From positions 124,001 to 188,000 of the IMG/VR virus record IMGVR_UViG_3300044680_000280: 64,000 nt of DNA; one strand, written 5' to 3'. Each line of letters opens with the position of its first letter. Position 1 is the first letter of the stretch. Of this stretch, positions 19,479-52,987 are shown piece by piece. A model generated the notes under the pieces. The model made no database searches and was not told the DNA's origin. It worked only from the letters and a program-made list of their open reading frames with translations. The position numbers were made by a program, and so were the translations under genes. The stretch comes from a virus.

Positions 19479-20093
19479 TCAGGCCAGGGTGAAGGTGTTG
19501 GAGTTTTGCTCGTTGGCGTTGACAGTGACCGTATTTCCAGCCGACGGAGCCGTACTGAAAGCCGAAAGCGGAATCGTGATGCTCGTGGCCGAAACCGTAC
19601 CCGTGGCGGCGAGGATCTGAGCCTGCGTCCACACCGCAGGGGATGGAGCCGTTGCCGTACCCGCCGCGAAGGTGACTGTCGTCGTGTCGGGCGAAACCGA
19701 CGTCAGGGTCGTCCCCGTAACACTCGCATTGGAAGAGCTCGAGTGGCTTGCCGCCGTAACAACGGGGGCTGCGACTTGAGAAGCCGTCAGACTCGTGACC
19801 GTGACAAGCTCCGCCTTCTGGAGGTTGAAAATGCGACCCTCACCCGAGGACAGTAGAACCCTGGGAGTCTCGTCCAAGTCGATGTAGCCGGGAACCGAGG
19901 GGTATCCTTGGGTCGTTCGATTGAACGCGATGTAACAGGACTGTTTGGGGGCTTGGGCATACCCATCCCTCTTGTAGGCCTTGGGATCGCCTTGAGAGCC
20001 CAAACGGTATACGGTTTTGTTCGGGAGTCCGTCATCGATGTCGTCGACGAGGATACCACCAACGACTGTTTGGTTGTGTTGGACACGCAGCAT
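19479..20093 (-). CDS. Virion structural protein with Ser/Thr-rich beta tail
   Basis: 204 aa. Residues 1-100 are a compact N-terminal domain (GGILVDDIDDGLPNKTVYRL; YIAFNRTTQGYPSVPGYIDL). The C-terminal half is Ser/Thr/Ala-rich beta sequence like the modules of the fibre and sheath genes. Likely a tail-associated structural subunit. Confidence 0.5.
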   Translation of the reverse strand: MLRVQHNQTVVGGILVDDIDDGLPNKTVYRLGSQGDPKAYKRDGYAQAPKQSCYIAFNRTTQGYPSVPGYIDLDETPRVLLSSGEGRIFNLQKAELVTVTSLTASQVAAPVVTAASHSSSSNASVTGTTLTSVSPDTTTVTFAAGTATAPSPAVWTQAQILAATGTVSATSITIPLSAFSTAPSAGNTVTVNANEQNSNTFTLA

Positions 20094-20139
20094 GGTTTTG
20101 GGCTCCTAGAATTCGATTTTGAGGTCTGATAAGTAAAAG

Positions 20140-20694
20140 TTACAAGGAAGTTGACCCCAAAGGACGCTTCGCGTGGTCCACGGGAACGACATCTTTCGTC
20201 AAGAAGGCATAAAGGTCCTGCGGAGTGGTGTTCTTTGCGATAAGGGCGTCCGCACCGGGGTACTTGCTTACCTGAAGCACGAATACAATGGCTTCCGAGC
20301 AAAACATTGCCCGTTGCTCATGCAGTGGGTTCCGAATCTTGAACTTAAGCCATCGCCAGGTACGCTCTAGCCATCTTTCGTAGACGACAACGGCCTCCCC
20401 GAGGAGGCCGCCCACGTCATACGAACCCCCGAGCCACCCCATAGCCCGAATCACCCCATCTTCAACGGGGTACGGTAGAGTGACTAGCGACACAAGGTGA
20501 TTACCAACCGTATACCCCTCGTAAGGAATCAAGTGGTACCCCTGCAAAACCGCCTCAAGCACCCACTTTTGTTGACCGTAAAACGCTGTCCCGGGGTCCA
20601 AAAGGAGCCAACAGTGACTAATCGTGGATCCGGTAAACCATTGAATGATCTTGGAAAGCCAGGTGTTCGAATTTGAGAATCCTACGCTGATCAT
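20140..20694 (-). CDS. Permuted papain-fold (NlpC/P60-like) enzyme
   Basis: Using the ATG at 20694 (ATGA overlap with the upstream stop) the protein is 184 aa; the longer frame is not supported. His27 in STISHCWLLL comes before Cys132 in AMFCSEAIVFVL. This His-then-Cys order is the circularly permuted papain-like arrangement (YiiX/YaeF-like). WVLEAVLQGYH and SYDVGGLLGE also fit. Members cleave peptides, amides or lipid esters. A lysis or cell-wall role during entry or exit is plausible beside fibre genes, but the substrate is not visible. No signal peptide. Confidence 0.65.
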   Translation of the reverse strand: MISVGFSNSNTWLSKIIQWFTGSTISHCWLLLDPGTAFYGQQKWVLEAVLQGYHLIPYEGYTVGNHLVSLVTLPYPVEDGVIRAMGWLGGSYDVGGLLGEAVVVYERWLERTWRWLKFKIRNPLHEQRAMFCSEAIVFVLQVSKYPGADALIAKNTTPQDLYAFLTKDVVPVDHAKRPLGSTSL

Positions 20695-21836
20695 TCTGTC
20701 TCCACTATGCAGTAGAACGTTGCGGCCGCCGCCGTGCCCGTGAAGGGGACGTCGTGCTGGAGCTTGATTTTTACATACATTCCGCTTGCCGACTCGATGA
20801 CAAGAGCCGACTGATAGTTCCAGGAAAGGATGACGTGAGGAGTGTTCAATCCGCGCCAAGAAGAGCCGCCAAGAGCCGGATACGTGGGATAGGACAACTG
20901 GGCGTCGTTCTGGTAATCGTTCATCGTCTTGTAATTGAGACTGTTCCCCAACGGAATGACTGTTCCAGTGGGCACGGCCCCCGAGGTCACGAGTTCTGGG
21001 GCAAAAAAGTCTACTATACCGTAGAGCTGGAAGGTTGTGGTGTCCGTAATGCCGATGTCCGTTGTGAACTGGACCTCAGCGGAGTCAATGCTCAGGTTCG
21101 TCCCTGAGTTCGGTTTGATAATGAACGAGGAATCCACCATATAGTGGTATGTGACGGTAACGACATCGGTCGGCTGATTTGCCGCGAGAAAGTGGATGAT
21201 CCCGTTCTTGTAATCGATCGTGTAGTCCCCGCCCGTACCGTAATGCGGATCCTGTTCCGTCTTCTGGGTCCCATTCACGTAAACGCTGACTCGGTAGGAC
21301 TGATTATTGCTGTCGACTAGGTAGTCCTCCCCAGTCAGTTTACCGTGGTAACTGTCAATGAGAGTTTGCTTAGAGGTCGCATAGTTGAGGTGCGTACCAT
21401 CATCGGTTGCGGTTTCCGCCGTGATGAGAACTGAGCTACCGTACCAAGTTGTGGGATCCGTCCAATCGTGCGAATAAAGAGTGGCGCGAACAACGCTCGT
21501 TTTCTCAGAGGCCACTCGGATACGCCCGTCGGCCAACCTGGGAGCCACGGTCTGGTTAGAACTCGTATGGTAATTGGTTAAAAAGTCAGTTGTGTCAGTG
21601 TCGTTTTGAGCCTGGGAGTAATCAGAATCAAACTGGAAAGTAGGAGACACTGACGAGAACACCAAGAGGCATTTGTATGCGATGTCGTCGTCAAAAGCGA
21701 AGACACAGTAACTGTCAACTTGGGTGATGTATTGTACGGACAAGTTCTTAGCTGTGCAGATCGCCTTGAAGTCGGGCCACCGTAGGGTGACGACCGCCGA
21801 ACTGTTGAAATGGATTTGTTGCGCGTAGGTGGTCAT
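20691..21836 (-). CDS. Tail-fibre-island structural protein
   Basis: The ATG at 21836 overlaps the fibre stop (ATGA), giving 381 aa. The N-terminus (QIHFNSSAVVTLRWPDFK) is followed by a domain with several Tyr/Asp pairs. At residues about 180-270 is the recurring beta module: VSVYVNGTQKTEQDP, YTIDYKNGIIHF and TDVVTVTYHYMV. The final ~110 residues are all-beta. Probably a tail-tip, fibre-attachment or adhesin-accessory protein. Confidence 0.6.
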   Translation of the reverse strand: MTTYAQQIHFNSSAVVTLRWPDFKAICTAKNLSVQYITQVDSYCVFAFDDDIAYKCLLVFSSVSPTFQFDSDYSQAQNDTDTTDFLTNYHTSSNQTVAPRLADGRIRVASEKTSVVRATLYSHDWTDPTTWYGSSVLITAETATDDGTHLNYATSKQTLIDSYHGKLTGEDYLVDSNNQSYRVSVYVNGTQKTEQDPHYGTGGDYTIDYKNGIIHFLAANQPTDVVTVTYHYMVDSSFIIKPNSGTNLSIDSAEVQFTTDIGITDTTTFQLYGIVDFFAPELVTSGAVPTGTVIPLGNSLNYKTMNDYQNDAQLSYPTYPALGGSSWRGLNTPHVILSWNYQSALVIESASGMYVKIKLQHDVPFTGTAAAATFYCIVETE

Positions 21837-24685
21837 TCGAAGTACCCGTTGATGAATATGGTGCCACGAACGACCCCTGTAGTCGGACCATAGAGGTGTT
21901 TGACCAAGATGAGGAAGTACTTCCCAGGTTGTACAACGATGGGTGCGGTTAGAGTTTGGGTAATAGGTGATCCTGTAAAGATGGTGCCCACGGCGGAGCT
22001 CGCCGGTGCGGTAAAAATGCCCAAAACGTATCGTTGACCTGTAGCCGTACTCGGATTGTTGGAGTTGGCCACCATGAAGCTCCACTCCTCAATGTTGATC
22101 GTCGCCCCTAAAACCGTCGTGACGAACGGTTGGGGCATGTAAATTTCTGTCACATACAAGGTATAAGGTGACGGTACCTGATACCCGAATACCCCGTAAA
22201 GCGACTCAGACCCGCTCGTTGTCGCTATATCGAAGTCACCACCCAAGTACGCATAATTGACGCCGGTCGTGGTAGGAGCCGCAGAAGAGGGAGCAGTGGT
22301 GAAAACCTGAGAGGTCTGTAAGAACGTTGTTGGGTCAATGCCCGCTGAGCGTCCGGTTCCTGCTAATTGATGTGCCCACGGTTTGGACTCATCGATGTCA
22401 TAGCGCCAGGACTGAAAACCGGTGATCTTCGTTTCAGGAGCCGCACTCGCCGTACCAGTCGTATACACACGGGCAAAAGCAGGCAAGTGGGAGACTGCGG
22501 CCGCAACGTTTGGAGTGGCTAGGGTTATAGGAGCAAAGTAGTCCACAAGGGGAACGCCAGTCTCTGACTCAATGATAAATCGTGCGCCCCCGTCCTCGAC
22601 CCACACAAAAAACAGGTAGTAGGTAGTACCCACGAGGGTACCAAGAGAGGAGGAGACGGTCTCTGTCCCGTTGTTGGACGTAACCGCGAAAATAGTGCCT
22701 GACGAGTTAAAGCGAAAGAAGGCTCCGTTACTGACGACCGCAGTTGTGCCCGACGGAGCTCCGAAACCCAACTCACTGACAGAGTTGGTTCCTTGAGTGA
22801 CGAGTGCTTTGAACGAGCACCCGGTCGGAGCCTGGTTAAACAATGCAAATTGGCTGTTGCTTGTGATAATCGCATAGGTTGTCGTAGTCGTGATGGCACC
22901 ACTGTTCAGTGTGAGTAGACCACCACTCTGACCTATTGTCATCGTTCCAGTACTTTGAGTCCAAACCCACGTGTTGATGTTGCTTCCCTCAACGGGGTCG
23001 AAACCAACAAGCGTTTGGTACCCTGGAGTGAGGTGGCCTAAACGATTTGCTCTCGCTACCCTACCGACTCCCGAGGACTGACCAATAATGGGGACGCCTG
23101 TCTGGGCACCCGCTGTCATTGCCGTACGGTCGACAACAGATCCTAGATTACGTACCAACCCCGCCGAATCAATTCCGGATACAGGCACTGGGTTAGTCAA
23201 TGGGGTGTTGGCGACAGGAGTGGAACCCTGAACAGGAATAGGCTCCCCGTTGAAGTCCTGATCTATCTGAAGTCGATCGATATCCTCAAAAAAGGCGTAG
23301 TCAACTGAAAGAGTGGTGCTCGATGCGGCTGTCCCAGTATTTCCAATATCGGCGATAATGAAAAGTGGTGTGTACGGAGTGGGGAGGTGGATCGTATTGA
23401 TTGCCACCACGATCCCATCGATGGACAGGGTCGCCTGGTTAGCTGAAAGTCCAATGTTGTACGTGTGGTAAGTCGCCGTGGTTCCACCATTCGGCAGTGT
23501 AACCGTCGTGCTCTGGGTGTCAGTGACCGCACTAGTGTATGCTGTTGTGAAGGTAACCTGAGTATTGTTTGTACCGCTAAATCCAATGACGGCCTGCTGA
23601 TTTATAGAGGTGGGGTTGTCTACCAATCCAAGGTATGCCGATTGGTTCGCAATACGTTGAGACAATGAGGCGTAGAATTGAATGTTGAACGGGAGGTAGT
23701 CCGAAAGGCTCACAATGGATCCAGAAGACCCGCTCGTGGTACCCGTGGCAATACTCACAATCGAACTGGCCACTGTGATTGAGCCGGCCGAAGGAGTCGT
23801 AGTCTTCCAATTGCTGACGACACTCGTTGCGCCGCCCGTTGTACCCGTATAGTTGGTGTCGAGAATAAGCTGTGTTGCCGAAACAACATATGAGACCTGC
23901 GCGTAGAGGGTCTCAGAATCAGCAGACTTTTTGACGTACTGACCCATTTTGATCTGGGTCGTGAAAGAAGTCCCAGAGCCAGTAACCGTAGTCGAACCGT
24001 TCGTAAACGTGACGGTACCCGTTAGGGTTGTCGTAAGAGCCGTGCCCGTGAAGTCGTCCCGAAAACTGCCCTCATCGGTAATAACCGGACCTCGGGTCTC
24101 AAGATTCCCATAAGCGTCAATAGTTGGGGTGCCATTTCCCGAGATGTAAGATCCTGGATCTGGGTACGAACTTGATGCCTGCTGATCTATCTCGGTAATG
24201 TTCGCGTTACTGTTCGGGGAAATGGTGACCACGAGGGCGTCGTCCGTAGCCAGTGGAGCCACACCCGATGGCTTAACCGCAACTGGCCCGTTACCAGCAT
24301 TATCGAAAATACCGGTTGTCCCAGCAACCTTGTTGACGAGAGTCGCGTACACGCCGCCGAAGGACGGCGTCGTACCCGTAACCGTCCAGGTGATCTGGAA
24401 GCAGCTTCCTCTGGCCATGGCCAGAGATATGATCTGTGTGCCCACCGCCGTGATGGCCGTCCCCACGGCTGAGCTACTAATGGCGGTTGTAAAGTTCCCG
24501 GGGTCAACTTCCTGAATCGTAAACGTAATGGTAGGGGTCGTCCCTGAAACGGTGCCCGTAACATTGACGATAAGGACGACTTCTTTTGCCCCTACATCTT
24601 CGAATACGCCTGACGACCCCGACGCCGTAACCGTGGCGTTTGCCAGTACAACTTGTCTATAGTCGTCGATTACGACTTCCATCAA
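21833..24685 (-). CDS. Tail fibre paralogue 1 (950 aa)
   Basis: Residues ~1-125 are the shared fibre N-domain (VVLIVNVTGTVSGTTPTITF; ITWTVTGTTPSFGGVYATLV). A repeat-like segment near residues 225-300 (GTVTFTNGSTTVTG; LDTNYTGTTGGAT) resembles the tandem module of 31578-34427. A lectin-like/jelly-roll region spans about 560-780. The conserved C-domain (VFGYQVPSPYTLYV to GTIFINGYFE) occurs in all three fibres. Conserved ends with a variable middle is typical of receptor-binding fibres. Confidence 0.75.
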   Translation of the reverse strand: MMEVVIDDYRQVVLANATVTASGSSGVFEDVGAKEVVLIVNVTGTVSGTTPTITFTIQEVDPGNFTTAISSSAVGTAITAVGTQIISLAMARGSCFQITWTVTGTTPSFGGVYATLVNKVAGTTGIFDNAGNGPVAVKPSGVAPLATDDALVVTISPNSNANITEIDQQASSSYPDPGSYISGNGTPTIDAYGNLETRGPVITDEGSFRDDFTGTALTTTLTGTVTFTNGSTTVTGSGTSFTTQIKMGQYVKKSADSETLYAQVSYVVSATQLILDTNYTGTTGGATSVVSNWKTTTPSAGSITVASSIVSIATGTTSGSSGSIVSLSDYLPFNIQFYASLSQRIANQSAYLGLVDNPTSINQQAVIGFSGTNNTQVTFTTAYTSAVTDTQSTTVTLPNGGTTATYHTYNIGLSANQATLSIDGIVVAINTIHLPTPYTPLFIIADIGNTGTAASSTTLSVDYAFFEDIDRLQIDQDFNGEPIPVQGSTPVANTPLTNPVPVSGIDSAGLVRNLGSVVDRTAMTAGAQTGVPIIGQSSGVGRVARANRLGHLTPGYQTLVGFDPVEGSNINTWVWTQSTGTMTIGQSGGLLTLNSGAITTTTTYAIITSNSQFALFNQAPTGCSFKALVTQGTNSVSELGFGAPSGTTAVVSNGAFFRFNSSGTIFAVTSNNGTETVSSSLGTLVGTTYYLFFVWVEDGGARFIIESETGVPLVDYFAPITLATPNVAAAVSHLPAFARVYTTGTASAAPETKITGFQSWRYDIDESKPWAHQLAGTGRSAGIDPTTFLQTSQVFTTAPSSAAPTTTGVNYAYLGGDFDIATTSGSESLYGVFGYQVPSPYTLYVTEIYMPQPFVTTVLGATINIEEWSFMVANSNNPSTATGQRYVLGIFTAPASSAVGTIFTGSPITQTLTAPIVVQPGKYFLILVKHLYGPTTGVVRGTIFINGYFE

Positions 24686-24709
24686 CCTCAGACAACTATA
24701 GAAAGAAGG

Positions 24710-26287
24710 TTACTCACAACCAGTCGATGGAGCCGTCGTACAACTAGCCGCAGTCGTCACACTCTTCGTCGCAATGCAACTCAGGTAGTTCTTGTAGACC
24801 GTGCCGTTGGAACTGGGCGTAAAGCTTGTGGTATCATTGAGCAATTGGGGATTGTTTGAATCGGACCAAGACCAAGCAAAGAATCCGATGTCTTGTGTGT
24901 CCGCCCAACTGAGGAAAAGAGGCCACCAAGCCGAACCCGTAGACGTATCGCATGCGTAGTATCCAGTCTCACCTACAACGATGGGATACCCTGCCGAAAG
25001 CACCGCTTGAGCTCCAAGTCCCGATGATGGGTCACAGAGCTGACTGAAGGTGGAAGCAGGGTTCGTGGTGCAGCCGCCCTGGTCGTCGTAAACGTGCCAG
25101 CTAGCCGCGAGGTTGTTCGCAGGGTCAGTCGGTAGGTATTGGGTCCAAAGGTCAAGGTTGGACGAGTAGCCAGGACCCCCCAGAATGATGAGATTGTTGG
25201 CTCCTGCGGTTCGAACGGTGTTGACGAGCGTTTGCCAACCAGCAACCGCGAAGTTCATCATGGGGCAGGACCCGCTCGACGCGGCCGTACTTCCATTCAG
25301 AAGACACGCGAACTGCTGAGCTTCGGTACCCGAGCTCATATTGGGCTCGTTGAACAAGTCGAAGATTACGTTCCCATTGCTTGCAAAAAGCCCAGCAACC
25401 TGTTGCCAGAACGTAATGCTGTGATCGACGTCTGGCATCAAACCCTGATTGAGAGCCTGAGTAGTTCCAGGGGCTGACATGTGAAGGTCGAGGATGACGT
25501 ACATGCCTTCCGACGTGATGAGATTCACCGCCTGCTGAATTGGGGTCTCGTAGTTAACCCCACCAACGCTCGCATCCGTACCATTGATACCAAGCCAGCA
25601 ATCCTCATTCAGAGGAATACGAACGGCATTGATACCCCAAGACTGCATCGCTGTAAGGCTGTCTTGAGTGAGGGGAGACGGTCCTCCTTCGGGGGACAGT
25701 ACAACGGCCGGTGGACCCCACGTAAGGCAGAAGTTCTCCGAGCCAGACTCGTCAACTCCATGAAGAGTGACCTTGTTGCCATTCGAGTCGGCAACATATC
25801 CATGCGCCCCGCCCACGCCCACGACCGCATGTAGGCCACTTGAGGGTGGGAGGCTAGACGAAGATATTGAGGTCGTCGTTGTACTGGTCGACGAAGACGT
25901 TGAGGTCGAAGTCGAAGAAGCGGTAGAGGTCGAAGTAGAGTGAGAGTGCGTATGGGAGCTACTCGAACTCGTCGAGGTTCCAACAATGGTCGATGAGTTG
26001 GAACTAGAAGTCGAACTGGGGGACGATGTCAGCGTCATCGACGATGATGAAGTTGACGGGGAACTCACTGAGGTCGATGAGTGAGTGTTTGACGACGTTG
26101 ACGTCGTGCTGGAGCTGGACTCTACCGTATACGACGTCGAGGACGTCGACAGAGTTGACGAGGTCGTGGTGGACTCCGTAGAGGTTGAGGACTCGGGCGG
26201 TGGTGTGCCCCCGCCGCAGGCTACGACACAGAGCAGCCCCACAGTGAATAGAGATACGAATTGACGACCAATGCGGGACCAAACCAT
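24710..26287 (-). CDS. GH5-family glycoside hydrolase (cellulase-like) lipoprotein
   Basis: 525 aa. A signal peptide ends in a lipobox (VVAC, Cys24), then GGG. Residues 29-149 are an extreme Ser/Thr linker, and 152-500 are a GH5 (clan A) TIM barrel. Landmarks: R223 in INAVRIPL, H269 in ILDLHM, acid/base E314 in IFDLFNEPN, H398/Y400 in SWHVYDD, nucleophile E440 in IVVGETGYY, and W472/W474 in FFAWSWSD. All catalytic positions are present. GH5 enzymes hydrolyse beta-1,4-glucans (cellulose) and related polymers. The lipobox predicts export and lipid anchoring when made in a Gram-negative host, which is odd for a virion enzyme. It has a strong SD (GGGAGGT) before ATG 26287 and lies between two fibre genes. 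Confidence 0.88.
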   Translation of the reverse strand: MVWSRIGRQFVSLFTVGLLCVVACGGGTPPPESSTSTESTTTSSTLSTSSTSYTVESSSSTTSTSSNTHSSTSVSSPSTSSSSMTLTSSPSSTSSSNSSTIVGTSTSSSSSHTHSHSTSTSTASSTSTSTSSSTSTTTTSISSSSLPPSSGLHAVVGVGGAHGYVADSNGNKVTLHGVDESGSENFCLTWGPPAVVLSPEGGPSPLTQDSLTAMQSWGINAVRIPLNEDCWLGINGTDASVGGVNYETPIQQAVNLITSEGMYVILDLHMSAPGTTQALNQGLMPDVDHSITFWQQVAGLFASNGNVIFDLFNEPNMSSGTEAQQFACLLNGSTAASSGSCPMMNFAVAGWQTLVNTVRTAGANNLIILGGPGYSSNLDLWTQYLPTDPANNLAASWHVYDDQGGCTTNPASTFSQLCDPSSGLGAQAVLSAGYPIVVGETGYYACDTSTGSAWWPLFLSWADTQDIGFFAWSWSDSNNPQLLNDTTSFTPSSNGTVYKNYLSCIATKSVTTAASCTTAPSTGCE

Positions 26288-26355
26288 GACGAATACCTCC
26301 CAGGTACAACGGGAATCGGATTTGATCTGGGTCTGGTATGGTCCTAAAGTCGGTC

Positions 26356-29166
26356 TTACTGGAGCATTGCGTCGAGAGTCACCATGCCTCGGTTGATCTG
26401 ACCAGCCGTGACGTTTCCGAGCGGAACGCGAAGAATGACTTGGACGTACTTACCACCAAAGCACACGATGGGAACCTTGGGGGTGTACTGAATGATTCCA
26501 GGGGTGAAGGGGTCCCCGAGGTTGGCGGATTTGGGTGCCTGCTGCATTCCGATGGCCGTACGAACTGGTGGGTTAGCGCCAGCCGTAGCCAAGGATGCGG
26601 CGCTGGATCCGACGGCGAGACCCCACTGAAGAAGTGTCGGCGTCGTCGTGCTTTGGGCGCCCATCAGGAATGTCGCTATCTGAATGCTCCAAATGACGAG
26701 TGTGAAGCCCGTCGGAACCTGATACGCAAAGAGCAGATAGTCCGTTTCAGCGGATGCAGGGGTGTTAAAGGCGAAGAGTCCGCCAAGCGTTGTGTATGCC
26801 GCCGTAGTGTTTGATAGCGACGTCGTCGCAATGGTGGACGGTGCCGTGCTGTTCGAGAAATTCTGTAGCTGGACACCAGTCAGGGGATCTGCAATACCGC
26901 TGCGAGAAGCAGACGCGAGCTGTTCGCCCCAAGTCGAGTTCGTCGAAAGATCGAGCTGCTCAACCGTAACGGACGTCAGAATGGCGTTGGCCGCGGTTCC
27001 AGGAGCTGTACCGCCGTTGTACACACGAATGGCAGCGGGAATGTGTCCCGTTTGAATGAGAGCGCCCTGAGTGGCCGGAGTTTGCAACGTGGTCGTTGCA
27101 AAGACCGAGTTATCCCAGTTTAGAATGTCGAGTCGAGCAATCGTACCGTAGACGTAGATGACGAACGTGTAGTAGTTCGCAGCCGTCAGAGCGGTCGCAA
27201 TGACCGACGTGGTTTCCGTTCCGTTGAAGTTGATGACGAGCTCTTGTGTACCCGCTGAAGTGATTCGGAAGAAAACTCCGTTAGTAGGGGCCGCGTTCGT
27301 AGCAGCGGCGAGGAACCCGAGCTCAATCGTGGCGTTCGTCTGAGCAGTGAGCTTTGCCTTAATGCGAGTCTGAACGGCAAACTCACCGTTGAGGAGGAAG
27401 GACTTATTCGACGTCAGAATCGAATACGCGTTCGCAGTCACGACGCTCGTAGAGTTCATGCTGAACGAAGTCTGAGTCTGTGCCTGAACAAGGCCGGACG
27501 TGGATTGAGCCCAACGAACCGTATTGACCGTCGTTCCATCGAAGGTGTCGAGGAATTCCAGACTTTCGGAACCCACTCGAAGACGATTGGCTTCACCGAA
27601 GGCAAACTCACCAACGAGGGCGTTGTCCGTCAGAGGGGCGAACAGAACCGGGTTACCGACAATGGCAGCGCCGCCAGCGGCAGGACCAACAACAATCGGT
27701 CGGCCCGAAGTGTCCGTTGAAAGGGCACGAGCAAGCGTACCGTCGGAGCCGCCGATGACCGCAACAACAGGCGGAGTCGCGGAAGCAACCGGCGCCTGAA
27801 AAGGGACTGCGGGATCGTACATGTCCGAGGCACGTAGGGTGACGTTTGCTGTACCCGACGTATACGCGGTAACCGTGACACGAGTGAGACCTGAACCGGT
27901 ATCCCCAAGGATCGACTTTGCTGTGGCTCCGTTAGCCGAGGCGAAGACAACAGTCTGCGTGATGGCGAGAGTCGTAGGATCCTGGAAGAAAGTGTTGCTC
28001 CAGGTTGTACCGCCGTCATACGAAATCTGCGGGGTGATCGTTCCGATCAGGGTTCCCGCCGCGAGCTGCATGCCCACTCCCGACAAGCCCGCCGTGGTGA
28101 TTTGAACCGCTGCGTTCAAAGCTCCGAGGGCGCCGGTTGCCGTGACATCGGAAGCCGAAAGGGTGATGGAGTTGTTAGGCGAGATTGCAACAACAAGGGC
28201 TGGGTCGGCTGCAACAGCCGCCGTGTTGGGCGCTTTAACCGCAACTGGACCGTGCGTACCGTCCGTGATTTCAAAAGGCCACGCACCCGAGAGAGCGGCG
28301 GCTGTGCCCTGGTTGACAGCACCGATGGTGTTCGAACCAGTCGGAAGTGGAGCTCCAATTTCAACGACCTGGGCACCAACACCCGAATCGAGAGTGACCG
28401 TAGCTGTACCCGTGGCAACCGTATTACCGAGAACGCGAACCTGCTGGTATCCAGCACTCGGGATTTCCCAGTTACCGTTCGCCGTCGTTGATGTAACTTC
28501 AACGCCCGTAACCGGAACGATGGCATTGACGGCTACCCAGTTGGTACCGTCGACTGTCGCCTGGAAGGACAGGGTTCCAGTCCAAGTGCCAGTGACCTCC
28601 ACACCAGTCGAGGCGGAGCCTTGCGTGTTGACAGCAACGTTCTGCGTGCTCGTGATTGTACCGGTAGACGTACGGTCCGTATATGTGATGGTAACGGGAA
28701 CCGAAGTACCGTTCGTGATACCCTGAATCGTGATGGCCGTGGCACCAGGAGAACCGGCCGTACCGAAGGCGGGAACACCGCTTGTCCCATAGAGTTCCGA
28801 GGTGCCGGCAAGTTTGTTGACAAGCGTCGCGTACACGCCGCCGAAGGACGGCGTTGTACCGCCGACCGCCCAAGAAACCTGAACGCAGGAGGCCACCATC
28901 GTCGGAATGGTGATTGTCTGAGTCCCGACTGCCGTGATCGCAGCGCCCGAAAAGGTTGGACCGATCAGCGTCGTTTGATTACCAGGATCAACCTCTTGAA
29001 CCGTGAACGTCAGGGTCGGAGTCGTACCCGAAACGGTTCCTGTGACGTTGATAACGAGAACCAGTTCTGCGGCACCGTAGCCAGTGAAAACGGCGGACCC
29101 GCTGGTCGTAACGGTCTGATTCGCTAGGACAATGGTCCTAAAATCCTGAATTGCTACTTCAGCCAT
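26356..29166 (-). CDS. Tail fibre paralogue 2 (936 aa)
   Basis: It has the same architecture as the 950-aa fibre. N-domain: LVLVINVTGTVSGTTPTLTF to TTPSFGGVYATLVNKLAG. The Ser/Thr/Val/Gly-rich shaft contains FDGTTVNTVRWAQST, a lectin-like start also seen in paralogue 1. C-domain: LLFAYQVPTGFTLV to NRGMVTLDAMLQ. It is probably a homotrimeric receptor-binding fibre. The middle differs strongly from paralogue 1, as expected for host-range variation. Confidence 0.75.
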   Translation of the reverse strand: MAEVAIQDFRTIVLANQTVTTSGSAVFTGYGAAELVLVINVTGTVSGTTPTLTFTVQEVDPGNQTTLIGPTFSGAAITAVGTQTITIPTMVASCVQVSWAVGGTTPSFGGVYATLVNKLAGTSELYGTSGVPAFGTAGSPGATAITIQGITNGTSVPVTITYTDRTSTGTITSTQNVAVNTQGSASTGVEVTGTWTGTLSFQATVDGTNWVAVNAIVPVTGVEVTSTTANGNWEIPSAGYQQVRVLGNTVATGTATVTLDSGVGAQVVEIGAPLPTGSNTIGAVNQGTAAALSGAWPFEITDGTHGPVAVKAPNTAAVAADPALVVAISPNNSITLSASDVTATGALGALNAAVQITTAGLSGVGMQLAAGTLIGTITPQISYDGGTTWSNTFFQDPTTLAITQTVVFASANGATAKSILGDTGSGLTRVTVTAYTSGTANVTLRASDMYDPAVPFQAPVASATPPVVAVIGGSDGTLARALSTDTSGRPIVVGPAAGGAAIVGNPVLFAPLTDNALVGEFAFGEANRLRVGSESLEFLDTFDGTTVNTVRWAQSTSGLVQAQTQTSFSMNSTSVVTANAYSILTSNKSFLLNGEFAVQTRIKAKLTAQTNATIELGFLAAATNAAPTNGVFFRITSAGTQELVINFNGTETTSVIATALTAANYYTFVIYVYGTIARLDILNWDNSVFATTTLQTPATQGALIQTGHIPAAIRVYNGGTAPGTAANAILTSVTVEQLDLSTNSTWGEQLASASRSGIADPLTGVQLQNFSNSTAPSTIATTSLSNTTAAYTTLGGLFAFNTPASAETDYLLFAYQVPTGFTLVIWSIQIATFLMGAQSTTTPTLLQWGLAVGSSAASLATAGANPPVRTAIGMQQAPKSANLGDPFTPGIIQYTPKVPIVCFGGKYVQVILRVPLGNVTAGQINRGMVTLDAMLQ

Positions 29167-29213
29167 GTGGTTCCCTCACATGACTTGGTCCAAAAAGACT
29201 TTAGACGTCACGA

Positions 29214-30155
29214 TTACTCGAAGTAACCGTCAATCATACAAAACCCCCGAATCTGTTGTCCAGGAGTTGCGTTAGACATTGGGATCCTGAGTACGATATG
29301 CAAGTACTTTGTAGTACTGATCACAATTGGAGTGTCTGGCCTGAAGTTGACGGGAGACGAACTAAAACTATCTCCTATTCGAGAGGACTGAGCCGCGGTC
29401 ATCGTTCCGAGTGGGAGAAAAGCAGGGCCGCCTGATGCCAAAGATGGATTCGTAGCGTTCGCCCCTATAGCCCACTGCAAAATAGTTGGCTGTGCACTAC
29501 TAGACTGACCGAATATCTGAGCCCCAATCGAAATAGATCGCAAATACAGGTTGGAGCCCGTAGGAACCTGGTATCCAAAAAGGGCGTAGTCCGTCTCACT
29601 GCCAGAGATGGAGTTAAACTGCCAAAGACCCCCAAGAGTTGAGTAACTGGGTACCGTATTTGAGAGAGTAGCGAGGGACGGGGCGGAGTTGTTTGTGTAG
29701 TTCGCGGTCTGAACCTGCGACACGGGGGTAACGATTGTGGATCGATTCGTCCCAGCCGCCTCAGGCTGAGGATTGCCCAGAGCCGCGACAGAGACGTTGA
29801 CCCCAGAAAAAGACGGCGTCGTGCCCGTGAGTGTCCACGTAACAACGAAGGTGCCCGCGCCTTGAACTGGCACTGAAAACGTGCCAGCAAGAGTGCCCGT
29901 AATGGGGCCCGTACTAACCGAACCGCCTATTTGCGTCGTTTGGTCGATCGGATCGACCTCGGTCATTGTAAACGTGATCGTCGGAGAAATGCCCGTCGGG
30001 GCATTTGTGATATTGACGATCAGAGAAACTTGGGGAGAACCGTAGCCTGAAACAATCGCGCTTCCATTAGCCGTGAGTGTGACAGCGGACTGAACGATCT
30101 GTTCGTTCGGATCCGCAAAGGTCGGCTGGGGGGCTAGGAAGAATATGCCGGGCAT
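29214..30155 (-). CDS. Short tail fibre paralogue 3 (313 aa)
   Basis: It contains only the conserved ends of the fibre family: the N-domain (VSLIVNITNAPTGISPTITF; TLTGTTPSFSGVNV) fused directly to the C-domain (ALFGYQVPTGSNLYLRSISI to GFCMIDGYFE). The ~600-aa lectin-like middle is missing. It may be a short fibre, an adaptor, or a deletion derivative that still trimerises. Its start abuts the 236-aa gene stop. Confidence 0.72.
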   Translation of the reverse strand: MPGIFFLAPQPTFADPNEQIVQSAVTLTANGSAIVSGYGSPQVSLIVNITNAPTGISPTITFTMTEVDPIDQTTQIGGSVSTGPITGTLAGTFSVPVQGAGTFVVTWTLTGTTPSFSGVNVSVAALGNPQPEAAGTNRSTIVTPVSQVQTANYTNNSAPSLATLSNTVPSYSTLGGLWQFNSISGSETDYALFGYQVPTGSNLYLRSISIGAQIFGQSSSAQPTILQWAIGANATNPSLASGGPAFLPLGTMTAAQSSRIGDSFSSSPVNFRPDTPIVISTTKYLHIVLRIPMSNATPGQQIRGFCMIDGYFE

Positions 30156-30865
30156 TAGACGTTCCTGACGATATTCTCACTCGTCACGGAGTTGCCGGAA
30201 TATGTATACGTTATGGTAGCCTGAGCAACGACCGTGAGCCCCGTGGCCGTATCGTAAACCGTCCTGACCTCCTGGGTCACCTTATTCCCAGTGTACGTAT
30301 AGTTGATGGTCTTGATGACGTTAGAATTCGAAGTCTGAGACCATTTTTCCTGAGTGACCCGCCTATTCACACGAGTGACCGAATACGTTGTTCCCAACGA
30401 GACGGGCTCGTTGTCCAGAAGCTCATGATTCGAGATGTCCGTGAGAGCCTGTTGGGCTACGGTTGAACTCGTAACGGTTTGTTCTTCTGTATTGAATCCG
30501 ATATAGCTCAACCCTGACGGGTACATGAAGGTGACATTTCCTCCTGTCGATGAGGGAATGATTTCTACCGTAGTAAAACTCGTGTCCGTGGGAATCGTAG
30601 CCACGTGATACGTCCCATCCGCGCCAGAAGTACCGCTGAGAACCGCTATGTCCCCGGGAGATACCGGATGGTCCTTCGTAAGAAGGATTCCCTCTCCGTC
30701 TGAGGCGAGATTCACGACAACCGTGCTCGTACCGTGAGTTGTCGAAACTAAGGTCGTGGTAAGGTATACCGCCGACCCGTCGGACACCAACTGAGCGGCA
30801 TCGACGAAGTCCGAATGGACTACGTCAGTCGCTTGTATTCCCGGTAGAGTTACTGACGGCGGCAC
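30155..30865 (-). CDS. Tail-fibre-island protein, unknown
   Basis: 236 aa; GTG start at 30865, 41 bp inside the upstream gene, so the start is uncertain. Residues 35-120 are a beta module (VLSGTSGADGTYHVATI). The C-terminal half repeats Y-T-Y-x-G-N/S-x-V-T-x-E twice (NYTYTGNKVTQEV and TYTYSGNSVTSEN), an RHS/YD-like strand pattern. Probably a fibre base or attachment protein. Confidence 0.5.
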   Translation of the reverse strand: MPPSVTLPGIQATDVVHSDFVDAAQLVSDGSAVYLTTTLVSTTHGTSTVVVNLASDGEGILLTKDHPVSPGDIAVLSGTSGADGTYHVATIPTDTSFTTVEIIPSSTGGNVTFMYPSGLSYIGFNTEEQTVTSSTVAQQALTDISNHELLDNEPVSLGTTYSVTRVNRRVTQEKWSQTSNSNVIKTINYTYTGNKVTQEVRTVYDTATGLTVVAQATITYTYSGNSVTSENIVRNV

Positions 30866-31313
30866 TTACGTTCGACCCTTCATCCGCCACTGGGGTTACC
30901 TTACGCGGCCGTCCCCTCCTTCGACCGGGCGGTGGAGCCGTAGAAGGTGTAGGCTCGGGAGCGCTCGCTTGAGTCTCACGGAGAGCCTCTTGGCGCTCTT
31001 GTTCTCGTGCCCTCTCTTCTTCGAGTCTTCGCTCCTCCAGTACTACGTACCCATTCACAACCGAAAAAAGGATACTTGCCATGGAGGAGAAGGCATGGCC
31101 CTGAGCCTCGATTGCCGCCGCCTGGGTCCTCAGGGTTTGAGCCTGAGCGAAACAGCTTTGCTTGCGATTCTCGGTCTCCTGGTGAAGCTGAAGAATCGTC
31201 TGCTGATACAGAGCAAACGTTTCGGGATTCAACCTCTGAGATCTCTGGAGATCCAGCAATCTCGTCCGTATCCGAATCAGGTCGTTTTGGGGGTTGTTTG
31301 ATGCGGGGTCCAT
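30825..31313 (-). CDS. Coiled-coil protein with AT-hook-like tail
   Basis: 162 aa. Residues 1-105 are helical, with a hydrophobic AFSSMASILFSVVNGYVVLE segment (about 73-92). A Glu/Arg-rich helix (EERRLEEERAREQERQEALR) follows, then a Pro-rich linker and GRRRGRPRK, an AT-hook-like basic motif (about 130-138) that could bind the DNA minor groove. Its ATG directly follows the TAA of the 81-aa gene. No family recognised. Confidence 0.5.
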   Translation of the reverse strand: MDPASNNPQNDLIRIRTRLLDLQRSQRLNPETFALYQQTILQLHQETENRKQSCFAQAQTLRTQAAAIEAQGHAFSSMASILFSVVNGYVVLEERRLEEERAREQERQEALRETQASAPEPTPSTAPPPGRRRGRPRKVTPVADEGSNVSAAVSNSTGNTSD

Positions 31314-31559
31314 TTATTTCATTCCTTTCAATGTGATCTCACCTCGAACTAAGGCATTCGCCAAAATGAGGCATGGTTCGCAGTAAATACCAGCAACAAG
31401 GTGTCCTTTGGAGGTCACCTTGAAAAAACGCGTGGGTTCCTCCGGCTTACTCTCACCATTTCTACGGAACATGGTAGGAGCGAAGTGCCCAGAACTACAC
31501 CAGTTCTGGGCGGGAGGAACCTTCTGCTCATCGATACTGAGATCGGCTTTGGGTAACAC
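31314..31559 (-). CDS. Small putative zinc-binding protein
   Basis: 81 aa, GTG start. A C-x2-G-H pair (NWCSSGHFAP) and a C-x2-C pair (IYCEPCLILANAL) are placed as in a small zinc ribbon. A 7-bp-stem hairpin (31551-31569) overlaps the start region. Function unknown. Confidence 0.5.
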   Translation of the reverse strand: MLPKADLSIDEQKVPPAQNWCSSGHFAPTMFRRNGESKPEEPTRFFKVTSKGHLVAGIYCEPCLILANALVRGEITLKGMK

Positions 31560-31577
31560 TGGGTTACCCTACACCGT

Positions 31578-34427
31578 TTAGAGTACCCAGTAATTGACGT
31601 GTTGGCCGGCCTTGATGGCCCAGTACGGAGTAATCGAGGTCGTGCTGGTCTCGGCATAGTCGTCACCGTTGGCGACCGTGCCGGGGTCACGGAGAACACC
31701 GTTCCAGTGAACGATGAGACCCCTACCGTTATTGGAGCCGTCCAGAACGTACGTCGCGCCGCCCGGAAGGGTGTGTGCCGTATTTGCCGGAAGAGCCGAA
31801 CCGAGGCGTTCAATGTACCGGGTAACCGTCGCCGAGGAGATGGCGTTCGAAAGGGCCTGAAGAGAGGCCGTGATGGTCGAGCCGGAGGTGAGGTACGGAC
31901 CCGTGAAGGTGTCGTCACCGATCTGCTGGTTGAGAATGTTGAGCGCCGAGATAACCGTGTCCCCTGCGCCGCCCGGAAGGTACGAGAACGGGAAGTAGTT
32001 GCCCGTGTTCGTAAGAGAACCCGAAATGTTCGTATCCGGGTAGGTCGTTCCGATCTGGCTGAGGATGTTGTCGATCTCCTGCTGAAGGAACGCGTCCGAG
32101 ACGAGTCCAAGAGCCGGGGTCGTTCGAAGACAGTTGACGTCGAGTAGGTCTCCTCGCTCGCCCTTACCGTAGATGAAATTGACGGTCGTAGCCTGACTCG
32201 ACTCCCAAACGTACGGAACAGCCTGCGTGCTGATATTTCCGCCGACCGGAACCGAGTAGAAGTTGATTTGAACCGAGTTCGGGCTGGTCGAAGTTCCCTC
32301 GGTCGTGACACCGAAGACCTTGTTGCCTTCGTTGGTCGTATTCGTCGCGGCCGACGCAGCGTAAGTGGTACCCGAGTAGTTCGTCGTCAGAACGATGTTA
32401 CCGCTCGAAACCGAGAGGATCGTGTACTGTGTGTCAGTACCGTCTGACGTGAAGGTAATCTTGTTACCCGCGACCAGGGCGCTAACCTGAGAAGCTGTAG
32501 TCGGAACTGTGGCCGAACCGTTGGTGATAGCGAACGTTCCGCTCAGAGCCGTTCCGCCGATGACGAAGAGCTCCTCGTCCGTCGCCGTGTTGACGATACC
32601 GACGTAGCAGCTCTCAAAGTCCCCAACGTATGGAGGGGTGTCGAAACACGGAATACCCGTCAGAGATTCAATGTTCGCGTGCGGAAGATTGCCAGTCGAC
32701 GTGATGACCACGTTCGTGTCGGTCGAAGCAACCGCCGCCGAATAGTAAACCTCGTTGACGTTGAGAACCTTCGCGTCGAGGGGGACCATGTTGGCCAGGT
32801 TCTTCGGAATCGGAACGAGGTTCAGGTCCGGACGGAGATACGTCGGAACGGGCTGGTCATAGTTGACGCCCTTGATCGCCGTTCGGTCCGTACGCTCGAA
32901 ATCGAGGTCGTCGTTGATGACGTACGGGTTGCGTTCGGTCCACATGGTACCCGTGTCACCAGAGACGGCCGATGCATTGGCAACGGACACCTGAGTCGCA
33001 CTTGTGTACGAAACGATGAGGAACGTTCCGTTGTTGCCAGCGTTCGTGAATCCACTCATCTGTAGGAAGTGACCCACAGAGTTCTGGGTCATATTCGCAA
33101 GACCCGTAATGGGAACGATACCCGCGGAGGGGGTGCCGGTTACAGGAGCGCTACCCGAATTGAAGCTCGTCCACGCGATGTTTCCCGAGTTCGAATCTGG
33201 ATAGTATCCGTTGGGATCCGACACAACCGCGGTGCCCGAAGCGGACGAACTGACTGTGAAAACGCCGTTGTTGCCGGCTTCTCCCGCGAGGGCAAGAAGA
33301 AGAAGGCTTCCCGTGGGAGCCGTTCCCGTCAAACCGCCGATGGCCAGCGCGTATGGGGTTGGAGTCATGACGGCCGTGGTCGCGGAGTTCGTCGTCCCCG
33401 TGTAATCGGTCGTCAGGGTGATGGTCGTACCGCCCGTGATCGAAAAGATCGTGTACTGAACAAGGGGGCGAGTCGCAAAAACGATCGTATCACCCGCAGA
33501 AAGGACACCCGTCTGCGAGGTCGACGCCGTGACAACGTTCGACTCGTGAGTTACCGCGAACGTTCCATACAGCGGAAGAGAAACCGCTTCCGCTGTGTAC
33601 GTGCCCGATGTTCCCCCATATGTCGACGTCAGGGTAATGGCCGTACCCGCAACCGTGAGGACCGTGTAGGTCACACCGAGAGCGGTGCCGTCATCGAACG
33701 AAACGTTGTCGCCTGGGAAGAGAAGACCATTTTGCGACACGGAAGCCGTGACCGATGCCGAACCGTTCGCAACGAGGAATGTCCCCGACAGAGTAACGAG
33801 GTTCGAGACCAACGCAGCAGTGGTCGCCACATTCGGCGTTCCCGCGTAAGCCACCGTCAAAGTGAAGGTCGCACCAGTAACCGTCGCAACCGTGTAGGCG
33901 ACTCCTGGCTGAGAAGCGAAAACGACGACGCTACCTGGCACCAGGATGCCAGTCATCGAAACCGAAGCCGTCACCGTAGTCGACGCACTGACCGCAAACG
34001 TTGTTGGAGTGTACAGCGGGGCGCCGCTATTGATCGCGGCAAGGGGAATCACTTCCGCCGTGGTCGAAGCGTTCGTCGTACCCTTGTATTCCGTAGCAAG
34101 GGTGACCGCAGTGCCCGCAACCGACGCAACCGTGTACTGAACGCCCGGTTGAGAAGCGAAAACGACGACTTCACCTGCATACAGAAGACCCGCTTGGGTC
34201 GTCGACGCCGTAACCGACGTCGAGTCGTTCGCCACCGAAAAAGTTCCCGTTAGGGTCGGAGTTGTGAAACCCGTGATGGTGGCACCCGTACCCGAGTTGA
34301 GAACAACGGGCATACCGAGACCCGCCGTCTCATCCAATAGCCACCGATTGTTGTTTTGATACGCGGATCCAGCGACGTCGAAGTCCTGCTGAACCGAATT
34401 GAAACGGAAATACGGTGTGTAGGTCAT
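31578..34427 (-). CDS. Tandem beta-module virion protein (949 aa)
   Basis: Four adjacent copies of a ~70-residue module span residues 60-355, and a fifth is near 630-715. Each copy reads G-T-F-x-V, S-x-x-V-T-A-S, G-x-L-x-x-G, V-x-F-A-S-x-P, Y-T-V, G-T-x-x-T-L, Y-x-G-T-T. Two copies of another module (NNGVFTVSSS, NNGTFLIVSY) follow. The C-terminal ~250 residues look like a fibre tip or attachment domain (VLDGSNNGRGLIVHWNGVLRD). It is almost free of charge and Cys. It is probably a long rod or fibre built from Ig-like domains; the same module occurs inside the tail sheath. Confidence 0.65.
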   Translation of the reverse strand: MTYTPYFRFNSVQQDFDVAGSAYQNNNRWLLDETAGLGMPVVLNSGTGATITGFTTPTLTGTFSVANDSTSVTASTTQAGLLYAGEVVVFASQPGVQYTVASVAGTAVTLATEYKGTTNASTTAEVIPLAAINSGAPLYTPTTFAVSASTTVTASVSMTGILVPGSVVVFASQPGVAYTVATVTGATFTLTVAYAGTPNVATTAALVSNLVTLSGTFLVANGSASVTASVSQNGLLFPGDNVSFDDGTALGVTYTVLTVAGTAITLTSTYGGTSGTYTAEAVSLPLYGTFAVTHESNVVTASTSQTGVLSAGDTIVFATRPLVQYTIFSITGGTTITLTTDYTGTTNSATTAVMTPTPYALAIGGLTGTAPTGSLLLLALAGEAGNNGVFTVSSSASGTAVVSDPNGYYPDSNSGNIAWTSFNSGSAPVTGTPSAGIVPITGLANMTQNSVGHFLQMSGFTNAGNNGTFLIVSYTSATQVSVANASAVSGDTGTMWTERNPYVINDDLDFERTDRTAIKGVNYDQPVPTYLRPDLNLVPIPKNLANMVPLDAKVLNVNEVYYSAAVASTDTNVVITSTGNLPHANIESLTGIPCFDTPPYVGDFESCYVGIVNTATDEELFVIGGTALSGTFAITNGSATVPTTASQVSALVAGNKITFTSDGTDTQYTILSVSSGNIVLTTNYSGTTYAASAATNTTNEGNKVFGVTTEGTSTSPNSVQINFYSVPVGGNISTQAVPYVWESSQATTVNFIYGKGERGDLLDVNCLRTTPALGLVSDAFLQQEIDNILSQIGTTYPDTNISGSLTNTGNYFPFSYLPGGAGDTVISALNILNQQIGDDTFTGPYLTSGSTITASLQALSNAISSATVTRYIERLGSALPANTAHTLPGGATYVLDGSNNGRGLIVHWNGVLRDPGTVANGDDYAETSTTSITPYWAIKAGQHVNYWVL
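33363..34250 (-). repeat. Four tandem ~70-residue beta modules
   Basis: This coding region holds four consecutive diverged repeats (residues 60-128, 141-207, 213-284 and 287-355 of the 949-aa protein). A related copy is at 1924-2109 inside the sheath gene. The repeats are protein modules with different DNA sequence, so they are old duplications, not a simple DNA repeat. Confidence 0.75.
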
Positions 34428-34447
34428 TGAGAGTCTCCGACGGGGGG

Positions 34448-34972
34448 TTAGGCGGCTACTTGATAATTCGCGACCAAGGTGGTTCTTGCAACAGGGGTAA
34501 AAGTTAAGAGGTTTATTGTGTCGAAGCCGGTTCCAGGTCCACCACTTTCAGAAATCCAGTAATCCCCAACGCCGGGATTCGTCGTACTCGTCTGAATCAG
34601 ACGGCGACTATTCGAAAAGACCTCGATCGTCTGCATCGTCGTAAGGTTATTGATGAACTTGTCGGGGGTTGTGAACTTTCGATTGGTCCCATCTCGAGCC
34701 CCTATAAGGGGAATCCCGACTTTTGGCGTGACTTGATTGAGACCCTGAGAAAGCTGGAGAAGACTAAGAATCCCCTCATTCTCAAAATCCTCGTACCAAT
34801 GATGTACAGAGGCGTCCCCAAATATGACTTGGCGTAAACGACTGAGGAAGTACCTCTGATAGTCGTCCTGCGTAAACGAATTGGGTATCGCGTTGGCGAT
34901 CTCCCCCGAGTCCGCCTGGTCGTCTACCTCATCGGCTCGACGAATCTGTCTGTAGCGAATTTCGGAGGTCAT
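34448..34972 (-). CDS. Virion protein with SESGG beta module (174 aa)
   Basis: The N-terminal ~80 residues are helical and charged. The C-terminal half has YWISESGGPGTGFDTINL then TTLVANYQVA, the same element that ends the 105-aa protein just upstream (SESGGSGTGFDTITL; DSLVVNYIVA). These two are paralogous in their C-domains. Probably tail or baseplate accessory subunits. Confidence 0.55.
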   Translation of the reverse strand: MTSEIRYRQIRRADEVDDQADSGEIANAIPNSFTQDDYQRYFLSRLRQVIFGDASVHHWYEDFENEGILSLLQLSQGLNQVTPKVGIPLIGARDGTNRKFTTPDKFINNLTTMQTIEVFSNSRRLIQTSTTNPGVGDYWISESGGPGTGFDTINLLTFTPVARTTLVANYQVAA

Positions 34973-34984
34973 GCGTCAAACCAC

Positions 34985-35302
34985 TCAGGCAACAATGTAG
35001 TTGACGACTAGTGAATCGTTAGAGTACGGGGCGTACGCTAGAGTTATGGTGTCGAATCCTGTACCCGATCCGCCGCTTTCCGAGACCGTGTAGTCCCATA
35101 GAAGTGTTTGCAGAACACCGTTGTAGTAGACCTCAATGGCAAAAAAAGGGACGTTCTGAAGAAACTTGTCCCCAAAAGGTACCGTAAATACCTGATTAGA
35201 TTGATCTAATAGTCCTAGAGGGGTGACCTCAGTTCTGTACCTTGCAACCGAAATGAAAAGTTGCTGGGCAGCTTGAAGCGAGAGGTAATTGACAAGATAC
35301 AC
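34985..35302 (-). CDS. Virion protein with SESGG beta module (105 aa)
   Basis: 105 aa. After a short helix (SLQAAQQLFISVARYRTEV) it is nearly all beta module: VYYNGVLQTLLWDYTVSESG, FDTITLAYAP, VVNYIVA. It shares the C-terminal domain of the next gene, so local duplication is likely. Confidence 0.55.
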   Translation of the reverse strand: MYLVNYLSLQAAQQLFISVARYRTEVTPLGLLDQSNQVFTVPFGDKFLQNVPFFAIEVYYNGVLQTLLWDYTVSESGGSGTGFDTITLAYAPYSNDSLVVNYIVA

Positions 35303-35323
35303 TCGAACCCTCCTTCGAGTGTA

Positions 35324-51154: not shown

Positions 51155-52987
51155 TTATCCGAATCGGTTGTCCGGCGGGGCCGCTTCCTCTTCCTTGATC
51201 TTGAGACCCAGGTACTCGGCAATCTTCTTGGTGACATCGCTCTTTTCAGCCAACGACTGACCAACCGCACTATACAGACCACGAGACATCTCGGTGAATA
51301 TCGCGTCATTGACCGTGAACATGTCATTCTTGATCTTCCGAGCCGTGTCGTCCGGATCGATATTGAACATCTCGAGAATGAGGTCGATCGAGATCGAACC
51401 CTTCTGGTAGAGGTTGAAGAGAGCGTCGTAGGTGTCCTGCGAGTCGCGGAGCGGCAAACGAGTGAAGGAAAGACGGGGGTACAGGATGACTTCTTCGCCC
51501 CACTTATCCTTCTCAACGAATCCCTTGCGACGGGCAACGGGTTTGAACAAGTACTCTTCGACGTATTCTTGGATCATCTCTCGAAGGAATAGGTATCGCT
51601 GATTGATGACCTCGAGCTTCAAGCGGTCGCCAGAGTACAGGGTCTCACCAGAAAGCAAGGATTCCGTAACGCCTAGACCCGTGCGTAGACGACGTTCTGT
51701 TTGCTCGTATTCAGCCGAAAGGTCGAGAAGACGGTCTTTAGACCCCATTTCCTCCCAGTGAACCTCATAGTTGGCAATGATAGAGTAGTCAGGATCGACA
51801 AGGGACAAGTCGACCTGCTCTCGGAGGTCATCAGCATCGGCGTCAGAGATGTCCTCCGCCCAAACGATGCGCTTAGGAGTCATCGCACGGTCGGCAATCT
51901 GAGTTTGAGCCTGACGAAGTTTTTCACGATAATACAGAGTTCGAAGACACCGATCCAGAATACTCTGCCCCAGCTCCTCGCCCGCCTGCTTGCGGCTCGA
52001 GAGCATGTACACGAAGCTTCCTTCGTCGGGATCCGTGCCAAGAGGAATGAGGCGCCCCTGCCCGATGTACTCACGTACTTCCTCGGGCATCTCTTGGACC
52101 ATCTCCTCAGCGACGGGATCTCCTAGTTTGGCTTCCTCCAACAAGGCACGATCTCGCTCTGACGGAATGAGCTCAACACGAACCTTATCCGAAAAGGAGA
52201 ACGTTTTGACTTCGACCTGATCGATCGGAAAGATGATGAGACGATCCCACCCTTGGTAGTGCTTCTGGTAGTAGGAGAGTTCCTCTTCCTCTCGGTTGTC
52301 TTTTTCGATGTATCCTTTTTCGAGAACTTCTTTCGCCTCGCCGTCCTCCATAAGAACGTTCTTCGGAACCGTCTGTTCGCGATAACCAACGTCGGGCGGA
52401 ACTTGAACGTCGGAATCTTCAGCAAAAATAGGGCAAGTACCGTCCAACCATAGGTGGTGAACTGCCATAATGAGCTTCTGAAAGAGTTTGACCTTCTTCG
52501 TCATTCTCTCAAAGAAGCTGAGAATGTACTTGCCATAGTCCTCAGCACTTTCGAATCCCTTCGGAAACGTACGAGGTTTGGGTGCTGCAAGGCGTACCTT
52601 CGAGAGCGGGAGTTCTGTATGAAGGTCGATCGCTTGCGCTACGATCTCATCCGTATTGTAGAAGTGTCGGTAGATCTCCCGCTTTTCCCGAATCGATTGC
52701 GGAAGCTGAAGAAAGTCTGTCGATAGTTGCGGAGAAAAGAACGAGCTGGAGCCCGACTGTACCGTGTTGGCGCCCATCACGGGATCGATGGCAAAGGCGG
52801 AGGACTTGTTACGATAACTCCCCATCTGGCGAGCTTGCTCCCTCGCCATCCGCTCCTTGGCGGTCAACGGTTGCATCTTGTTCCCGTACGGCTGCGAGAC
52901 ATACGGACGGTTTCTGGCTGGCGCCGAGGGCACCACCAGTCCACCACGTACATTCGTGACGTTCGTGAACTTACTACCTAGGGGCAT
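51155..52987 (-). CDS. Portal protein
   Basis: 610 aa, typical length. FYNTDEIVAQAIDLHTELPL (109-128) and the C-terminal GVTESLLSGETLYSGDRLKL with VINQRYLFLREMIQEYVEEY are the portal helical core and clip regions. An acidic, variable tail ends KIKEEEAAPPDNRFG. The portal forms the 12-subunit ring at one capsid vertex through which TerL pumps DNA. It lies just downstream of TerL and overlaps the 177-aa gene by 14 bp. Confidence 0.85.
   Translation of the reverse strand: MPLGSKFTNVTNVRGGLVVPSAPARNRPYVSQPYGNKMQPLTAKERMAREQARQMGSYRNKSSAFAIDPVMGANTVQSGSSSFFSPQLSTDFLQLPQSIREKREIYRHFYNTDEIVAQAIDLHTELPLSKVRLAAPKPRTFPKGFESAEDYGKYILSFFERMTKKVKLFQKLIMAVHHLWLDGTCPIFAEDSDVQVPPDVGYREQTVPKNVLMEDGEAKEVLEKGYIEKDNREEEELSYYQKHYQGWDRLIIFPIDQVEVKTFSFSDKVRVELIPSERDRALLEEAKLGDPVAEEMVQEMPEEVREYIGQGRLIPLGTDPDEGSFVYMLSSRKQAGEELGQSILDRCLRTLYYREKLRQAQTQIADRAMTPKRIVWAEDISDADADDLREQVDLSLVDPDYSIIANYEVHWEEMGSKDRLLDLSAEYEQTERRLRTGLGVTESLLSGETLYSGDRLKLEVINQRYLFLREMIQEYVEEYLFKPVARRKGFVEKDKWGEEVILYPRLSFTRLPLRDSQDTYDALFNLYQKGSISIDLILEMFNIDPDDTARKIKNDMFTVNDAIFTEMSRGLYSAVGQSLAEKSDVTKKIAEYLGLKIKEEEAAPPDNRFG

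Follow-up and report, generated by a model that had tools for sequence, protein, structure and literature searches.

The GH5 gene and its predicted product

The window, a 64,000-nucleotide stretch corresponding to bases 124001-188000 in a virus record of 406,734 bp, contains a complete gene for a protein in which the sole recognised Pfam domain is that of the GH5 cellulases (PF00150, E = 1.2e-38, 133.6 bits against a curated cut-off of 23.5), the remainder of its 525 residues being signal and linker (Table 1). Genes for tail proteins flank it on the same strand, with gaps of 24 bp downstream and 68 bp upstream.

Table 1. Coordinates, in the window, of the GH5 locus and of the other genes discussed
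Feature	Position	Strand	Remarks
GH5 lipoprotein gene	24710..26287	(-)	complete ORF, ATG start, 525 aa + stop
Shine-Dalgarno-like GGGAGG	26296..26301	(-)	8 nt upstream of the GH5 ATG, from sequence
Signal peptide, residues 1-23	26219..26287	(-)	MVWSRIGRQFVSLFTVGLLCVVA; two-Arg n-region, hydrophobic core, lipobox VVA followed by C
Cys24 codon	26216..26218	(-)	predicted lipidation site; Gly at +2, Pro at +7
Linker, residues 25-149	25841..26215	(-)	~75% Ser/Thr
GH5 catalytic domain, residues 170-477	24857..25780	(-)	PF00150 (Pfam envelope)
E314, predicted acid/base	25346..25348	(-)	NEP motif; sequence and alignment
E440, predicted nucleophile	24968..24970	(-)	sequence and alignment
Accessory tail island, 15.2 kb	20094..35323	(-)	holds the GH5 gene; missing as a block from G003
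Downstream neighbour, 950 aa	21833..24685	(-)	tail-fibre-like, phrog_1980, 2.7e-8
Upstream neighbour, 936 aa	26356..29166	(-)	shares 63% identity with its 950-aa paralog in the first 131 aa
Third tail-protein paralog, 313 aa	29214..30155	(-)	shorter member of the family
Portal protein	51155..52987	(-)	viral hallmark, phrog_16240, 4.9e-25
Terminase large subunit	55390..57399	(-)	viral hallmark, phrog_2, 1.5e-17
Further island gene	20140-20859	(-)	phrog_1128, 9.5e-10
Volactin-type gene	5924-6931	(-)	PF25216, E 2.6e-72
Gene with weak ferritin-like match	6980-7882	(-)	6.5e-5, just under cut-off
Gene with weak intein-splicing match	11205-12089	(-)	3.4e-6, under curated cut-off
Gene with weak DRAT match	13186-14415	(-)	3.3e-4, under cut-off
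Three tandem paralogs	53514-54059, 54056-54571, 54578-55105	(-)	46-49% identity

The N-terminus displays the sequence features of a bacterial lipoprotein, namely a basic n-region, a hydrophobic core and a lipobox (MVWSRIGRQFVSLFTVGLLCVVA followed by C24). A crude scan covered 104 kb and 108 ORFs that do not overlap; this was the only ORF of the window to pass its combined hydrophobicity and Shine-Dalgarno filter, which two further ORFs of the scan, both without a lipobox, also passed. The residues singled out in the first-pass annotation (E314, E440, H269, H398, R223 and Cys24) are each present at the position claimed, and the succession of lipobox, Ser/Thr linker and GH5 domain that it described is likewise found, the linker occupying residues 25-149 with 75% Ser/Thr over the stretch that was scored. 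An alignment with 13 relatives, in which the protein residue equals the domain position plus 149, places all eight conserved GH5 residues in the phage protein (R223, H269, N313, E314, H398, Y400, E440 and W472/W474). The same alignment reveals M270 at a position where the relatives have a nearly invariant Trp.

An AlphaFold2 model built from 22 sequences (pLDDT 88.5, pTM 0.91), which replaced an earlier, poor one built from five (pLDDT 55.7), has the form of a (beta/alpha)8 barrel and matches GH5 endoglucanases of the PDB with probability 1.00, E-values down to 1.3e-16 and 15-22% identity (Foldseek). A PDB search with the sequence returned weak matches to beta-glucanases and cellulases, the best at 2.2e-8. 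The confident model and the endoglucanase matches make the predicted GH5 fold secure, but at 15-22% identity they do not fix the exact substrate. The GH5 family covers many substrates; the phage protein is a predicted GH5 beta-glycanase and, with endoglucanases making up most of its fold matches, most likely an endo-beta-1,4-glucanase.

Where would such a lipoprotein reside? In Myxococcus xanthus, Lys at +2 tends to direct lipoproteins to the inner membrane and Ala at +7 to the matrix, while no outer-membrane rule was seen (PMC3222651). The phage protein has neither mark, and since it carries Gly at +2 and Pro at +7, the outer membrane is its predicted default location under the M. xanthus rules, from which the actual host may differ.

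Phage residence and bacterial origin

The presence of portal and terminase genes in a record of this size indicates a jumbo tailed phage. Relatives of the terminase are found in records of 363 kb (G003, 71% identity) and 529 kb (55%) and in LR745208 of 485 kb (45%), and its closest cultured relative, at 29% identity, infects an acidobacterium. A comparison with 269 Myxococcota genomes as evidence on the host, run as a search without a positive control, returned no relative of the terminase.

Genes of the window are collinear with those of G003. The homologs of the genes at 19479-20093 and 35324-35983 are about 100 bp apart in that relative and 15.2 kb apart here, which identifies the whole intervening block, with the GH5 gene and three tail-protein genes, as an accessory island. 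Its earlier designation as a tail-fibre island appears reasonable: the 950-aa and 936-aa proteins flanking the GH5 gene are paralogous, with a tail-fibre PHROG match for the former. No direct repeats of at least 10 bases were found at the island ends, the tail neighbour returned no relatives when used as a lineage probe, and scans for promoters and terminators gave matches at chance level only. The possibility that GH5 is common to the whole jumbo-phage lineage was rejected, as no GH5 gene was found in the 11 IMG/VR records related by their terminase, and G003 lacks the island.

The GC3 of the GH5 gene (0.60) is like that of other phage genes and unlike that of its Myxococcota homolog L013 (0.885). 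The gene is therefore adapted to the phage and does not stem from host contamination, and its capture was not recent. Contamination and a chimeric contig were both rejected because the composition is phage-like and tail genes lie to either side; the gene genuinely resides in the phage.

L013 emerged as the best match when 84,980 species genomes were scanned with exact peptide patterns, being 65% identical over the entire domain. It belongs to an uncultured Myxococcales MAG (contig CALAOV010000226), where the genes around it, read by eye, are ordinary bacterial ones. In the tree, the phage protein and L013 form a pair with 100/100 support, borne on a long stem, and other viral GH5s fall in different places; this pairing with a Myxococcota lipoprotein bears out the earlier suggestion that the gene was captured from a bacterium. 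Some match occurs in 23 of 284 Myxococcota genomes and a close one only in that of L013, from an order in which GH5 matches are frequent (15 of 18 genomes).

The two proteins share the order of signal, lipobox, low-complexity linker and catalytic domain. L013 differs in its chromosomal location and high GC3, in having a Gly/Ser/Ala rather than a Ser/Thr linker, and in its Ala at +7; low-complexity linkers, again of different composition, are also present in the Myxococcota homologs L036 and L037. With start sites picked by eye, a lipobox is found in all 12 Myxococcota homologs with a complete N-terminus and in none of the four Chloroflexota/Actinomycetota homologs, so the lipid anchor most likely came from the donor. 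Invention of the anchor by the phage was rejected on the same distribution, and the arrangement of anchor and linker is no novelty of the phage. The gene was most likely captured whole, together with its lipoprotein signal and linker layout, from a cellulolytic Myxococcota-like bacterium, apparently one living in soil. It represents a clear case of whole-architecture capture, in which signal, lipobox and linker layout travelled with the catalytic domain.

Other viral GH5 proteins and the possible role of the anchored enzyme

Viral GH5 enzymes are already known, including ones with demonstrated activity; it is the lipid-anchored form that is unusual. The GH5 cellulase of Erwinia phage S6 has been shown to degrade carboxymethylcellulose, and this phage depends on cellulose for infection (PMC9544554; PMC12540986). 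Its gp095 and the GH5s of phages Skulduggery, SopranoGao and phiEaP8 resemble the present protein in being encoded in a variable structural region and in having a cellulase-type fold. The fold-matched phage proteins, however, are 700-930 aa long, whereas the protein described here is a stand-alone lipoprotein of another GH5 branch, 15-18% identical to them in fold alignments. Another GH5, whose endomannanase activity has been confirmed (Emerson et al. 2018, PMC6786970), is likewise a bacterial-type enzyme encoded on a soil viral contig between viral genes. It differs in that its measured substrate is mannan and its source a metagenome contig with no jumbo-phage assignment, and the term 'signal peptide' is absent from the text of that paper. 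A literature search for phage-encoded cellulases with a lipoprotein or signal peptide, of open-access scope with most subscription journals outside it, returned no relevant paper.

Exact patterns drawn from the GH5 protein alone found nothing in viral contigs, and a scan with the GH5 alignment retrieved 31 further loci, some of them long proteins without a signal. Several viral GH5s (L076, L079, L082 and L083) combine Sec-like signals with Ser-rich or collagen-like linkers. Of the GH5 contigs, 23 were searched for a terminase and 5 have one, the check for viral hallmarks covering part of the contigs. Similar in layout is L067, which has a lipobox (LLAC) ahead of its GH5 domain and lies on a viral contig (IMGVR_UViG_3300042090_000914) encoding a major head protein (phrog_371, 1.3e-8). 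It differs, however, in its short linker, its 36% identity and its separate branch, in another part of the tree beside other Myxococcota sequences (97/96). Judging from its sequence, L067 is probably an independent capture, and its separate position in the tree implies that phage capture of such genes probably happened at least twice. Export signals are not confined to the GH5 of the present record, since they occur on several viral GH5s, with a lipobox in L067. Two separate GH5 genes, L077 and L083, both with Sec-like signals, are present on the 48-kb viral contig IMGVR_UViG_3300037116_000060. The sole GH5 relative found in the named phage collection is L029 (MT835565.1, a human faecal phage record), at 24% identity.

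What could a phage gain from a cellulase of this kind? The evidence is far more telling on origin and architecture than on function. We hypothesize, with about even confidence, that a captured Myxococcota-like GH5 lipoprotein, long resident in the island, is displayed on the host outer membrane, where it cuts beta-glucan and frees the progeny. The gene would be expressed late, with the structural genes, and host Sec, Lgt and signal peptidase II would export its product and lipidate it at Cys24, Gly at +2 sending the lipoprotein to the outer membrane by default. The long Ser/Thr linker would hold the enzyme off the membrane, and the anchored enzyme would cut beta-glucan of the host matrix, or of a nearby cellulose-like polymer, around the infected cell, allowing progeny to leave instead of becoming stuck. 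Its sequence features suggest that the enzyme is probably cell-anchored and not virion-borne; some packaging of the protein in the virion could occur. A related reading strikes us as improbable: the infected cell would become an enzyme-coated surface, on which the anchored glucanase destroys receptors or matrix, so that progeny neither adhere to the dying cell or its neighbours nor enter them again. Under this reading, if the host is a myxobacterium, the exchange of outer-membrane lipoproteins between kin cells could even bring the enzyme to cells not yet infected.

The gene combines a bacterial-type enzyme with tail genes on both sides and portal and terminase genes in the same record, as a viral auxiliary carbohydrate-degrading gene would. 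It might serve metabolism, boosting the digestion of plant or soil polysaccharides by the infected cell and feeding replication, with the anchor keeping the products near. Such a role has been proposed for soil-virus glycoside hydrolases, and the confirmed activity of the endomannanase lends it weight (PMC6786970), as does the frequency of GH5 matches in the order of the closest homolog. A lytic cycle, however, would hardly last long enough for polymer digestion to be worthwhile; the gene lies among tail genes and not metabolic ones, and in an unsystematic look no sugar-uptake gene was seen beside it. We consider a metabolic role unlikely. The tail-protein cluster is where one might expect a virion-associated depolymerase, acting on or with the tail despite its signal and clearing cellulose at adsorption, as proposed for S6 gp095. 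In S6, a GH5 cellulase gene goes together with a need for cellulose during infection (PMC9544554), and many viral GH5s are long and signal-less. Yet neither a fibre nor any other structural domain is joined to the GH5 domain, and the lipobox, the Shine-Dalgarno sequence and the export signal were kept intact while the composition drifted to that of the phage. The phylogenetic check proposed in the first-pass annotation points the same way: the phage protein and L013, joined at 100/100, lie away from the signal-less, fibre-type group (L070, L072, L075 and L084), membership in which was rejected by the tree. Taken with this, action from the virion appears distinctly unlikely.

The island is lineage-specific, and GH5 is missing from all 11 related jumbo phages searched, as might be expected of a bacterial gene swept in with the island and kept without particular function. 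Against such passive carriage, which we regard as very improbable, the full set of GH5 residues and the lipobox survive 35% divergence and a complete change of composition, and comparable exported GH5s turn up again in other viral contigs. That recurrence suggests a strategy and not a single accident. A role in release or in preventing entrapment is rated above both the metabolic and the virion role. The S6 cellulase is linked to phage entry by way of host cellulose, while a lipid-anchored form would shift the action to the infected cell, and its purpose would then be release and anti-trapping, not entry.

Other features of the phage

Several further genes of the window merit description. One encodes a protein matching Volactin, of the archaeal-type actin family; the jumbo-phage relatives G002 and G003 also encode proteins of this type (E ~1e-75), which are therefore conserved in the phage lineage. 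Weak matches are to a ferritin-like domain, to a C-terminal intein-splicing domain, in a protein whose G003 homolog aligns only from residue 130, and to DRAT (dinitrogenase reductase ADP-ribosyltransferase), in a possible ADP-ribosyltransferase. Within the island, the product of the gene at 20140-20859 falls in the host-takeover/auxiliary category and resembles, by eye, short proteins encoded in the vicinity of the L079 and L083 GH5 genes. The three tandem paralogs lie between the portal and terminase genes and are conserved in the relatives.
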